64,000 nucleotides of DNA from Anaerolineaceae bacterium (GTDB lineage: Bacteria > Chloroflexota > Anaerolineae > Anaerolineales > Anaerolineaceae), in assembly GCA_029975475.1 (NCBI GenBank), contig JARKPB010000015.1, positions 1 through 64,000 of the forward strand, written 5' to 3'. Both the position numbers and the translations under genes were made by a program. The notes beneath the pieces were generated by a model, which worked only from the letters and a program-made list of their open reading frames with translations, was not told where the DNA came from and searched no databases. This document shows positions 8,896 to 16,326 of the stretch, one piece after another (within the stretch, counting starts at the first letter, position 1; each line of letters begins with the position of its first letter).

Positions 8896-10809
8896 TTAAA
8901 CATTCTTGAATTCACCATCCACGACATCCTCGCCGCCAGATGAGGACGGGCCGGGTTGTTCCCCGCCAGCTGCCGGGTCAGCCCCGGGCATGGGGCCGGC
9001 TGCGCCGGGCTGCTGGTACATGCTGGCGCCGACTTTTTGCAGCAATTCACCCAGGGCTTCTGTATCCCTGCGAATGCGCTCGGTGTCGCTGCCTGCTGCG
9101 GTTTCTTTCAACCGGGCCGCGGCTTCTTCCAGTTCTTTCTTCTTGTCGTCCGGCAGTTTGTCGCCGTTTTCGCGCACGAACTTTTCGGTGGTGTAAACCA
9201 TGTTATCCGCGTGATTCTTGACCTCCACCATCTCTTTGCGCAGGCGGTCCGCTTCAGCGTTGGCTTCGGCTTCTTTCTTCATGCGCTGAATTTCGGCTTC
9301 GGTCAGGCCGGAAGAGGCTGTGATGGTGATGTGCTGGCTGCGGCCGGTGGCTTTGTCCTGCGCGGTAACATTCAGGATGCCGTTGGCGTCAATATCGAAA
9401 GTAACTTCGATCTGCGGCACGCCGCGCGGGGCAGGGGGAATGCCGTCCAGGATAAACTTGCCCAGCGTCTTGTTGTCGCTCGCCATCGGGCGTTCACCCT
9501 GCACGATGTGAATTTCCACCTGCGTCTGGCTGTCGCCCGCCGTGCTGAAAATCTGGCTCTTACTGGCCGGGATGGTGGTGTTGCGTTCGATGATCGGGGT
9601 CGCCACCCCGCCCAGGGTTTCCACCGAAAGCGTCAGCGGGGTAACATCCAGCAGCAGGATGTCTTTCACTTCGCCGCCCAGAACACCGGCCTGAATGGCT
9701 GCCCCGACGGCCACAACCTCATCCGGATTGACGCCCTTATGCGGTTCTTTGGAAAATTCGCGGCGAACCGCGTCCTGAACCGCCGGCATGCGGGTCATAC
9801 CGCCTACCAGGACCACTTCATTAATATCCGAGGCTTTCAAGCCTGCGTCTGCCAGAGCGCGGCGCACCGGGTCCAGCGATTTCTGAATCAGGTCGCCGGT
9901 TAATTGCTCCAGCTTGGCGCGAGTCAGGCTCATCACCAGATGTTTGGGACCGCTGGCATCCGCGGTGATGTAGGGCAGGTTGATTTCGGTCTGCATCGTG
10001 CTGGAAAGCTCGATTTTGGCTTTTTCAGCGGCCTCGCGCAAACGCTGAAGCGCCTGGCGGTCTTGCCGCAGGTCAATCCCATTTTCTTTCTTGTATTCTT
10101 CAATCAGATAATCCATCAGCCGCAGGTCGAAATCATCGCCGCCCAGGAAGGTATCACCGCTGGTCGAGCGTACCTGGAAGACGCCTTCACCCACATCCAG
10201 GATGGAGATATCAAAAGTGCCGCCGCCCAGATCGTACACCGCGATCACCTCGTTCTTCTTCTTATCCAGCCCGTAGGCCAGCGAAGAGGCGGTCGGTTCA
10301 TTGATAATACGCAGGACCTCCAGACCGGCGATCTTACCCGCGTCTTTGGTCGCGTTGCGCTGGGCATCGTTGAAATATGCCGGGACGGTGATCACCGCCT
10401 GGGTAACCGGTTCGCCCAGGTAAGCTTCCGCATCGGCCTTGAGTTTTGAAAGGATCATGGCCGAAATTTCAGGCGGCGAATACTCCTTCCCGTCCAGCAC
10501 CACGCGCACATCGCCGTTCGGGGCTTTGGTCACTTTATAGGGGACGCGGCTCAAGGTGCGTTGAACTTCCGGGTCGTCAAATTTCCGCCCCATAAAGCGT
10601 TTGATCGAAAAAATTGTGTTTTCCGGGTTGGTAATCGCCTGGTTGCGGGCAGTGCGGCCAACGATGCGCTCGTGGTTCTTATTCACTGCCACCACCGATG
10701 GCACCAGGCGTTCGCCTTCTGCCGAAGGAATCACCACCGGTTCACCGCCCATCATGACTGCAACCACAGAGTTTGTCGTACCAAGATCAATGCCAATGAT
10801 TTTTCCCAT
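8896..10809 (-). CDS. dnaK: Chaperone protein DnaK (Hsp70)
   Basis: A 637-residue Hsp70. The N-terminal actin-like ATPase has the phosphate loop [34 protein letters not shown], and [17 protein letters not shown]. The hydrophobic linker ([15 protein letters not shown]) leads to the beta-sandwich and the helical lid. The tail is Gly/Pro-rich and ends [10 protein letters not shown]. It works with DnaJ and GrpE from the same operon. Length and motifs are normal. Confidence 0.98.
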
Positions 10810-13993: not shown

Positions 13994-14245
13994 AGGGCTT
14001 TCTCCACTTTAAGGTCAGCTTGATTATACCCTTTGCGCCTGCCAGCGGACGGCGAAATATGTCTTAACCTTACGGGTCATTTGGCCATTCCTTTTTATTA
14101 AGGGAGGCTCTTCAAAGCAAATACAAAACCTACACAGCCGGCTAATGGACGTGGTAAACTTGATTAAAATTATCACAAAAAAACCCTTGAAAGCCCGCCT
14201 GTTAATCAGGCCGGTGAAATCCGGGAACTGAAGGAACCTATCAAC

Positions 14246-15349
14246 ATGCCAGTCATCTACCCCTTTACTGCGATTGTCGGACAGGAACGCATGCGCCGCG
14301 CCCTGGTGCTGAATGCCGTGGACCCGCGCATTGGCGGTGTGCTCATCCGCGGGGAACGCGGTACGGCAAAATCGACTGCCGCGCGCGCCCTGGCAGCCCT
14401 GCTGCCCAAAGTTCGGGCGGTCAGCGACTGCCGTTTTTCCTGCGATCCTGACAGCCCGGCGACCCTGTGTACCGAGTGCCGTGAACGGGTGGCCCGCGGC
14501 GAGGTGCTGCCGGTTCATTCGCTGACCACACCGTTTGTGAACCTGCCAGTTTCGGCCACCGAAGACCGCGTGGTGGGTACGCTGGATATCGAAAAAGCGA
14601 TTCAGAAAGGCGAGCGCAGTTTTGAGCCGGGCGTCCTGGCCGCCGCCAATCGCGGTCTGCTTTACATTGACGAGGTCAATCTGCTGGATGATCACGTCGT
14701 GGATGTCCTCCTGGATTCCGCCGCCATGGGGATGAATATCATCGAACGCGAGGGAATCTCCTTCGCCCACCCGGCTCGCTTCATTCTGGTTGGCACCATG
14801 AATCCGGAAGAAGGCGATCTGCGCCCCCAGCTGCTCGATCGATTTGCCCTTTCGGTTGAAATCTACGGTATCCGCGACGCGCGCGAACGGGTTACCATCA
14901 TGGAACGCAACCTCGCCTTTGAAGCCAACCCGGAGCAGTTCCAGCGCGAATGGCAGTCGCATGAAGAAGAACTATCCCGCCAGATTGAAACCGCCCGCAC
15001 CCTGGTTGATCAGGTCGTATTTACCCGGCGCGATTTACTCTCCATCGCTTCGTTGACCGCCTCGCTCAGTGTGGACGGCCACCGCGCGGACCTGGTGATC
15101 CTCAAGGCTGCCCGCGCCCAGGCGGCATTTGAAGGCCGAAAGGCGATCACCGATCGGGACATTGCCCTGGCCGCTGAACTGGCGCTGCCGCACCGTCTGA
15201 AACGAACGCCCTTCCAGCAGGAAGAAATGGGCATGGAAGAGCTTCAGGAACGGATTGAACAGTTAAAAGGCGCTGCCAGTCAGGGCGAAAAGCGCCAGAC
15301 GGATGCCGAAGACGGACAGGAAGAAAACCCAGACTCAAAAAAAGGGTAG
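14246..15349 (+). CDS. ChlI/BchI-type AAA+ chelatase ATPase (zero-frame product)
   Basis: A 367-residue AAA+ ATPase of the magnesium/cobalt chelatase small-subunit type. It shows Walker A GERGTAKSTAARAL near residue 32, Walker B LLYIDEVNLLDDH, and the family's sensor/arginine-finger region (RFILVGTMNPEEGDLRPQLL). The known I subunit forms hexamers that drive insertion of Mg or Co into a tetrapyrrole. It ends at TAG 15347-15349 immediately after a run of seven A. The neighbouring frame, open across that site, encodes the D-type half, so part of the ribosomes probably shift and make a long fusion. Cobalamin genes next door favour cobalt chelation with a CobN partner, which is not in this window. 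Confidence 0.85.
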   Translation: MPVIYPFTAIVGQERMRRALVLNAVDPRIGGVLIRGERGTAKSTAARALAALLPKVRAVSDCRFSCDPDSPATLCTECRERVARGEVLPVHSLTTPFVNLPVSATEDRVVGTLDIEKAIQKGERSFEPGVLAAANRGLLYIDEVNLLDDHVVDVLLDSAAMGMNIIEREGISFAHPARFILVGTMNPEEGDLRPQLLDRFALSVEIYGIRDARERVTIMERNLAFEANPEQFQREWQSHEEELSRQIETARTLVDQVVFTRRDLLSIASLTASLSVDGHRADLVILKAARAQAAFEGRKAITDRDIALAAELALPHRLKRTPFQQEEMGMEELQERIEQLKGAASQGEKRQTDAEDGQEENPDSKKG

Positions 15350-15378
15350 AGGCGGGGGAAACCGGGGCACCCTCGCCT
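15318..15378 (+). promoter_or_regulatory. Putative programmed -1 ribosomal frameshift site
   Basis: Three elements in order. An SD-like AGGAAG lies at 15318-15323. The slippery heptamer A-AAA-AAA is at 15337-15343, in the correct zero-frame phase and 13 bases downstream. After six bases a 9-bp stem follows, AGGCGGGGG at 15350-15358 with CCCTCGCCT at 15370-15378 (one G-U pair, 11-base loop). The zero frame stops at 15347-15349; shifting back by one base enters the frame that encodes the chelatase D half. Confidence 0.8.
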
Positions 15379-16326
15379 GACGCTGGCGACCCCGAACCCT
15401 CGCCGCAAGACCTCTTCAATCAAAATGACGCTCGCTGGTGGGAAGGCGGAAAACGCGTCAATACCGGGGAAGTTTTTAACCCGCGCCGCCTGGCGACACC
15501 GCTGGACAAAATCATGCGCAAACACAGCGGACGCCGTTCGCGCACCCATTCCGGCCGCAAACGCGGGCGGTACATCCAGGCGCGCCCGGCCAATGGGAAA
15601 ACGGACGATCTGGCTTTTGATGCCACCATTCGCGCGGCTGCTCCCTACCAGACCGGCCGCGAAGAAGAGCGAAAAAAGGTCGCTTTTGCCATCCATAAAA
15701 GCGATTTGCAGCGCAAAGTCCGCGTCCGGCGGGCAGCCAACCTGGTGCTCTTTCTGGTAGATGCCTCCTGGTCAATGGCGGTGGCTGAGCGCATGAGCGC
15801 CACCAAAGGCGCGATCCTCTCGCTGCTCACCGACGCTTATCAACGCCGCGATCGGGTTGGCTTGATCGTGTTTCAGAAAGACCGCGCCACCCTGGTGCTG
15901 CCGCCAACCAATTCGGTCCTGCTGGCTGAAAAGGCGCTCCAGAGCATTCCGGTAGGCGGAAAGACCCCCCTTTCAGCGGGTTTGCAGATGGCTTACGATG
16001 TCCTCCGTCAGGAGAAAATCCTTCATCCAGATGTCAATCCGCTCCTGATCATCCTGACAGATGGAGCCGGGAACGTCTCCATCGGGATGCGCTCCCCCCA
16101 GGAAGAGGCTGAACGAATTGCCCGGGGGATCGCGGATGACAATATTCACAGCGTGGTAATTAATATGGAGCACGCTGCCTTTGACCAGGGCCTGGCGCAG
16201 GTGCTGGCGGATCATCTCAAAGCCCCCTGTTACTCGCTGGCTGAATTAAAAGCCGAAAACCTGTACCGCACCGTGCGGCAGGAGATGGAGCAGGCCACCG
16301 CCAGAGTGCGTGAGGAATTGCGGTAA
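15343..16326 (+). CDS. ChlD/BchD-type half with VWA domain (reached by -1 frameshift)
   Basis: This is the -1-frame continuation of the preceding gene. A Pro/acidic linker (about residues 1-30 of this part) leads to TGEVFNPRRLATPLDKIM and GRRSRTHSGRKRGRY, typical of D subunits. A von Willebrand A domain follows with MIDAS DASWS (in LVLFLVDASWSMAVAERM) and TDGAGN. No ATG, GTG or TTG in a suitable place starts it before ATG 15514, and that ATG would cut off conserved sequence. The fused product would be about 693 residues, close to ordinary ChlD. The D subunit bridges the ATPase ring and the large chelatase subunit. A sequencing error is the main alternative. Confidence 0.8.
   Translation, partial: RVEAGETGAPSPDAGDPEPSPQDLFNQNDARWWEGGKRVNTGEVFNPRRLATPLDKIMRKHSGRRSRTHSGRKRGRYIQARPANGKTDDLAFDATIRAAAPYQTGREEERKKVAFAIHKSDLQRKVRVRRAANLVLFLVDASWSMAVAERMSATKGAILSLLTDAYQRRDRVGLIVFQKDRATLVLPPTNSVLLAEKALQSIPVGGKTPLSAGLQMAYDVLRQEKILHPDVNPLLIILTDGAGNVSIGMRSPQEEAERIARGIADDNIHSVVINMEHAAFDQGLAQVLADHLKAPCYSLAELKAENLYRTVRQEMEQATARVREELR

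Follow-up and report, generated by a model that had tools for sequence, protein, structure and literature searches.

Probable −1 frameshifting in a split chlD gene of an Anaerolineaceae bacterium that seemingly lacks a chelatase large subunit

Genes of the chlD type with programmed −1 frameshifting were reportedly described by Antonov in 2020. The recoding site of dnaX in Escherichia coli has a Shine-Dalgarno (SD) sequence and a stem. Frameshifted chlD (fs-chlD) has already been published together with assays in E. coli (Antonov 2013, PMC3711429) and is treated in a section of a review (PMC5009743). Kuznetsov 2022 places fs-chlD in Anaerolinea thermophila, Ornatilinea apprima, Longilinea arvoryzae and Levilinea saccharolytica, and also in Brevefilum fermentans; four of the Anaerolineaceae fs-chlD species in that paper also have a separate chlI, and where fs-chlD occurs without a large subunit or a B12 or chlorophyll pathway its function is given there as unknown (PMC9227772).

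Three other systems are close to fs-chlD. In dnaX, two subunits of a single AAA+ machine likewise come from a single gene, by way of an A run in heptamer phase (E. coli) or of a long run slipped by RNA polymerase (Thermus) (PMC5009743). The protein is a different one, however, and the shift gives the short form in E. coli dnaX whereas it gives the long form in split chlD; it is the fused chlD relatives that resemble dnaX in polarity. The ChlI/ChlD subunits of Mg-chelatase and the CobS/CobT subunits of cobalt chelatase share with the gene studied here an AAA+ plus VWA architecture and sequence matches (to 6l8d and 2x31), but their partner ChlH/CobN was found neither in the host nor in 61 genomes of its family. 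NorQ/NorD is a MoxR AAA+/VWA pair on which the insertion of iron into a client enzyme depends (PMC9976466), and in such pairs, too, an AAA+ ring has a VWA partner. The likeness to NorQ/NorD is one of resemblance and not of membership, and it lies in the architecture alone. NorQ/NorD is, we think, the closest model for how the ring discussed below might act.

The gene lies in a window of 64,000 nt, the whole stretch of DNA that was analysed (Anaerolineaceae bacterium, assembly GCA_029975475.1, contig JARKPB010000015.1, positions 1 to 64,000). It is the same gene as fs-chlD, with the same A_AAA_AAA site and the same two predicted products, and it falls within fs-chlD by its halves in −1 register, a conserved run in heptamer phase and a predicted downstream structure (Table 1). 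What sets the present work apart is that the family is sampled deeply, that short runs come with stems and long runs mostly without, and that fused close relatives keep the run. With the window gene, a recoding gene that is already in the literature gains a further, well-formed example, in a bacterium seemingly without the B12-making partner subunit.

Table 1. Features of the recoded chlD-type gene, in window positions
Feature	Positions	Strand	Basis or remark
AAGGAA, probable ribosome-binding site for the ChlI-like ORF	14231..14236	+	9 nt ahead of ATG 14246; sequence only
Zero-frame ORF, ChlI-like AAA+ ATPase, 367 aa, short product	14246..15349	+	matches to TIGR02442, TIGR02030 and 6l8d
AGGAAG, SD-like, possible stimulator	15318..15323	+	13 nt before the slippery run
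Slippery heptamer A_AAA_AAA (A7), zero-frame phase	15337..15343	+	read directly; phase conserved
TAG, zero-frame stop, one codon past the heptamer	15347..15349	+	read directly
5′ arm of downstream stem, AGGCGGGGG	15350..15358	+	predicted fold
3′ arm of 9-bp stem	15370..15378	+	predicted, folds of increasing length
Competing 3′ arm, 8 bp	15397..15404	+	predicted, folds of increasing length
−1 segment after the shift: linker and VWA (integrin I) domain, D half, 327 aa	15343..16326	+	PF13519, TIGR02442, 2x31
Entire recoded gene; long product, ChlD-like, predicted at 693 aa	14246..16326	+	joined TIGR02442 score

The zero frame, read directly from the sequence, closes with the codons TCA AAA AAA GGG TAG, and the −1 frame has no stop over 15259-16326 (position 9260 of locus L034 corresponds to the opening point). 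An earlier note on this DNA had proposed a programmed −1 frameshift joining a ChlI-type and a ChlD-type half, and had pointed to a zero-frame stop 3 bases after the heptamer, a −1 frame open from 15259 with conserved D sequence ahead of its first possible start, AGGAAG 13 bases before the heptamer and a 9-bp stem 6 bases after it. Each of these features was recovered, the stem as a predicted fold, and the proposal itself is well supported by the conserved run, its heptamer phase, the stem spacing and the score of the joined product. In longer folds the 5′ arm of the stem re-pairs with the competing 3′ arm instead; the 77 nt past the run (15344-15420) fold at −36.3 kcal/mol with a z of −2.74. 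A run of A7 is by itself unremarkable, with 14 in the window against 13.5 expected; it is its conservation at the junction, described below, that goes beyond chance.

The joined 693-aa product reaches 796.3 bits against TIGR02442 and passes its cut-off of 779.45, which neither half does alone (513 and 275 bits), and the model is covered in order, positions 1-355 by the ChlI-like half and 363-640 by the D half. The joined score over the cut-off and this ordered coverage support one recoded gene. In the predicted long product the junction reads ...SKK|RVEAGE.... The ChlI-like half also matches TIGR02030 (434.6 bits) and the solved ChlI 6l8d (E 1.5e-103), and the D half PF13519 (7.3e-14) and the BchD 2x31 (E 2.2e-21). 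The TIGR02442 homology of the D half starts at D residue 18, upstream of the earliest ATG/GTG/TTG of the −1 frame (15514, D residue 58). Walker A and DxSxS patterns were present in 170/170 relative proteins. A four-cysteine pattern lies in residues 62-78 of the ChlI-like half (C62, C66, C75, C78; window 14429-14479) and in 151/170 relatives; it is a possible metal site.

The mechanism that we propose, and to which we give a probability of roughly four in five, is that one gene makes a short ChlI-like and a long ChlD-like subunit by −1 slippage on A_AAA_AAA, for a ring with a client other than a chelatase. Most ribosomes would terminate at 15347 and release the 367-aa ChlI-like AAA+ subunit, and a fraction would slip one base back on the heptamer, with help from the stem that begins 6 nt further on and perhaps from the upstream AGGAAG, to complete the 693-aa ChlD-like subunit with its AAA+ and VWA domains. 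A single mRNA would thus supply the two subunits in a fixed ratio, and they would assemble into a ring of the ChlI/ChlD type. Such a ring would act on a protein other than CobN/ChlH, by remodelling or metal loading in the manner of NorQ/NorD.

The split and the run are widely conserved. Within the family, 58/61 genomes had a match to the D half (two of these, G040 and G057, with weak VWA matches only). Both halves were present in 55 of the 57 loci fetched (L043 and L089, which lie at contig ends with no I half nearby, are outside the counts); 54 of these need a −1 shift, one (L087) is in a single frame, and all 54 split loci have an A7-A10 run at the junction. Among the best 80 of 471 related stretches from genomes titled Anaerolineae, Anaerolineaceae or Chloroflexi, 77 need −1, two need +1 and one is fused; this set includes L111 and L144, whose titles give Levilinea saccharolytica KIBI-1 (an A9 species) and Bellilinea caldifistulae GOMI-1 (A8), and both need −1. 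From the wider class, 60 loci fetched from 199 genomes, picked to spread over families, comprised 40 that need −1, one that needs +1 and 19 fused. When duplicates with identical D sequence were dropped, 176 distinct loci were left, 156 of them split (153 need −1, three need +1) and 20 fused, and the A7-A10 run stands at the junction in 156/156 of the split relatives. In the rest of the split loci (2.12 Mb, both strands, junction excluded) A/T runs of at least 9 occur only 4 times, and the junction runs therefore look selected. The gene itself has a match in 126/131 good class genomes at E 0.001 or better, some of these matches being weak. The run is absent in two more distant split loci, L304 (of the class, D half 45% identical, +1) and L315; L318, with no I half nearby, was left out. 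As a separate observation, three genomes of class family f38 (G097, G129 and G156) had 9-10 D-half matches each, far above the others; the f38 locus examined was L304 (G097), the +1 split without an A run.

By run length, the split loci divide into 25 with A7, 8 with A8, 98 with A9 and 25 with A10. The short runs keep A_AAA_AAA in frame, with A7 in phase 2 in 25/25 (window gene included) and A8 in phase 1 in 8/8. The A9 loci are spread over the three phases, with 15, 63 and 20 loci. Further A7 loci were in phase 2 in 7/7, six of them from one family (f74) of another class and so non-independent. A first helix of at least 5 bp starting 5-9 nt past the run was predicted in 23/25 A7, 4/8 A8, 22/98 A9 and 4/25 A10 loci (26/123 for A9 and A10 pooled), these and the following contrasts between run classes being raw locus counts that ignore kinship. 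Over the 60 nt that follow the run, the fold z averaged −2.65 for A7, −2.0 for A8, −0.38 for A9 and −0.98 for A10, with values of −1.5 or lower in 21/25, 6/8, 16/98 and 10/25 loci, respectively. The contrast persists when the 64 new named loci are taken alone, with mean z values of −2.7 for 10 short runs, −0.1 for 44 A9 and −1.11 for 10 A10. The earlier note had asked for a check that heptamer and stem persist in relatives: an A run is present in all 156 split relatives, and the stem in most A7 loci but not in most A9 and A10 loci. SD-like matches of at least 4 nt upstream (17/25 A7, 39/98 A9 and 12/25 A10, against 17.6% at random in-gene positions) separate the run classes poorly, since they are common before A9 and A10 too.

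Run length thus appears to be traded against the stem, short runs having predicted stems and long runs mostly lacking them. In published chlD cassettes in E. coli, shifting was 10% with A7, 40% with A9 and 63% with A11 (PMC3711429), which fits a weak short run in need of a stem. On the tree we count 8 changes between short and long runs, but just 4 independent pairs lie on supported branches, too few for a test; on average 2.4 of these go in the same direction, 0.0 in the opposite direction and 1.6 show no difference. A quick tree (L090 left out) and FastTree were used, 170/176 loci being complete enough for the second. The trade-off is apparently new: the literature searched, which did not extend to the Antonov 2020 text or to supplements, held no report of it, which is weak evidence of novelty.

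Long runs bring in the most probable of the alternatives, namely that RNA polymerase slipping on the A run makes the frame change and the ribosome does not. RNA polymerase slips efficiently on 9 A (PMC5009743), A9 and A10 relatives are mostly without a downstream stem, A9 tolerates all three phases, and +1 registers occur among the 176 loci only at A10 (L103, L114 and L258). The window run is instead an A7 in heptamer phase with a predicted stem at ribosomal spacing, its A7 relatives keep both phase and stem, and A9 can be slipped by ribosomes too. We consider polymerase slippage an unlikely source of the shift here; since the window gene is of the A7 plus stem type, ribosomal −1 frameshifting is the likeliest mechanism for it.

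As to what the ring does, the alternative is that the chlD products are cobalt chelatase subunits. TIGR02442 carries the name putative cobaltochelatase, and the gene is adjoined by MeaB and a B12-binding mutase domain, neighbours that in the view of the earlier note fit the cobalt version. These neighbours are real, yet they show B12 use and not B12 synthesis. A profile search with PF02514, the CobN/Mg-chelatase family, gave no match in the host genome (98.9% complete, 20 contigs, 3.78% contamination) and in 0/61 family genomes, with 5/14 control genomes positive, so neither the CobN of a CobNST cobalt chelatase nor the ChlH/BchH of a ChlIDH Mg-chelatase was found; CobN, which the earlier note had named as a gene to search for, is among these absences. 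The tetrapyrrole/corrin pathway was judged from two markers only, CbiC and ALAD; neither was found in the host genome, and CbiC was present in 3/61 family genomes. We accordingly rejected a cobalt or magnesium chelatase in the host on the lack of a large subunit there and in the 61 family genomes.

Of 42 picked class genomes, 6 had a PF02514 match, 5 of them above cut-off. In three of these five (G230, G254 and G159) CobN shares its contig with a nearby ChlI-like gene that is not this one but 49-52% identical to it, and this chlD is on another contig; a fourth (G153) has a second ChlI that is only partial, on a separate short contig. The fifth, G243, has CobN with no second ChlI at E 1e-15, and there this gene could serve a chelatase. 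Taken together, we regard cobalt chelatase membership as improbable for the window gene. Since neither a large subunit nor any sign of a tetrapyrrole pathway turned up in the host, the ring is probably neither a cobalt nor a magnesium chelatase, and most likely it would act on another protein, which it would remodel or load with metal. The account usually given, that of a cobalt chelatase, is unlikely to apply in this lineage to a gene that is widespread in the class.

The neighbours of the gene were compared within the family and across the class. Divergently transcribed upstream, MeaB was found in 16/48 and the B12-binding mutase domain in 15/48 family loci; elsewhere in the class each was near the gene in 0/49 loci. 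Downstream in the family, about 2-7 kb after the gene (for example in L036 and L039), are a tandem trio of M42 aminopeptidases (22/48) and a solute-binding lipoprotein (29/48), with 0/46 and 1/46, respectively, in the rest of the class. For the class, no more than 6 representatives of each neighbour served as queries, at E 1e-10. Pfam confirmed a single representative each of the M42 and the solute-binding clusters, and the other clusters were named by eye from sequence. With all four neighbours near-absent in the rest of the class we dropped them as a guide to the client, and no conserved client neighbour beyond the family was seen among the class loci searched. In the host genome the M42 trio lies elsewhere (C10:48336-51302).

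The two remaining alternatives concern the junction. If the D half were a separate protein started independently by translational coupling, one would look for starts in the interval that separates the run from the first conserved motif of the D half; 67/156 split relatives have an in-frame ATG there, and just 51 lack any ATG/GTG/TTG in that interval. In the window gene, however, the first start falls inside the conserved region, and a separate start leaves the A run, its phase and the stem unexplained. The earlier note had named conserved independent starts in relatives as evidence against a frameshift; candidates occur in part of the relatives, where separate initiation may take place, but not in the window gene, for which we find this alternative very improbable. 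That the split stems from an error of sequencing or assembly, or from the decay of a gene through a single frameshift mutation, is hardly credible: the homopolymer is a classic error site, eight A would fuse the frames and the close relatives L107 and L103 do differ there by one A, but the same −1 shift is needed in 54/55 family loci and in L111 and L144, and the Walker A and DxSxS patterns are present in 170/170 proteins.

Single-frame relatives had been expected to be without the signal. The A run is nevertheless kept in the linker of 17/20 fused loci (A10 in 5, A9 in 9, A7 in 2, A6 in 1), and is missing from L237, L245 and L259 (genomes G119, G077 and G068). A −1-frame stop follows within 9 codons of the run in 17/17 of them, where the background is 33% for positions in the linker and 23% for positions in the gene, and a +1-frame stop in 12/17 against 29%. 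The two fused A7 loci are in phase 2, with z values of −2.03 and −2.29, and in family f64 of another Chloroflexota class all 8 fused loci examined carry A9, followed after one codon by a −1 stop. Two of these 8 belong to a set of 31 more distant fused genes; the other 29 of that set, mostly of other classes and with D halves 37-47% identical, served as a control and are without a run of at least 6 A in the linker, so the run is no general trait of chlD linkers and our reading is limited to this branch. Two of the run-less genes, L308 and L310, are additional copies from f64 genomes, in which the main copy does have A9. L107 (fused, A9) and L103 (+1 split, A10) are 93% identical in DNA, and their sole coding-region indel, the last few codons aside, is one A in the run. 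On the tree, genes must have switched between the fused and the split state 15 times, 8 or more of these on supported branches. That fused close relatives keep the run and a nearby −1 stop is also apparently new, the same literature search, with the same limits, holding no report of slippery runs kept in fused chlD, again weak evidence of novelty.

The simplest reading is that two products are made in either register. We lean, if by a little, towards a broader form of it, in which chlD of the Anaerolineae and of f64 would be a two-product gene where slippage itself is selected and the register is irrelevant, serving an AAA+/VWA machine without any chelatase. Short runs would act in ribosomal phase with a stem and long runs possibly through RNA polymerase; in fused genes the shift would yield the short protein, as in dnaX, and one A gained or lost would flip the default product, as L107 and L103 suggest. 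Against this, the genomes of the run-less fused L237, L245 and L259 are also without a second ChlI match, and in them a ChlI-alone product may be dispensable. If the flip of register is true, two products also come from some of the chlD genes that now carry an ordinary single-frame annotation, and the family would be a natural experiment on ribosomal and transcriptional slippage replacing each other.

A second ChlI was surveyed in 42 picked genomes (20 fused, 22 split) at E 1e-15. It was missing in 13/20 fused and 11/22 split genomes, and we set aside the idea that the shift substitutes for a missing ChlI. In the host genome the separate chlI that the earlier note had thought worth seeking does exist (C18:577009-577956, 38% identical). 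On the minus strand of L091:6928-9101 (contig C18 of genome G000) a gene of the URO-D family comes directly after a second ChlI-like AAA+ gene. A relative of this URO-D gene stands beside the ChlI-like gene in 7 other loci (L287-L293, six of the family and one of the order) and was not found in 8 more (L294-L301, one of the family and seven of the class). Since ALAD was not found in the host, this URO-D member may be a relative of corrinoid methyltransferases.
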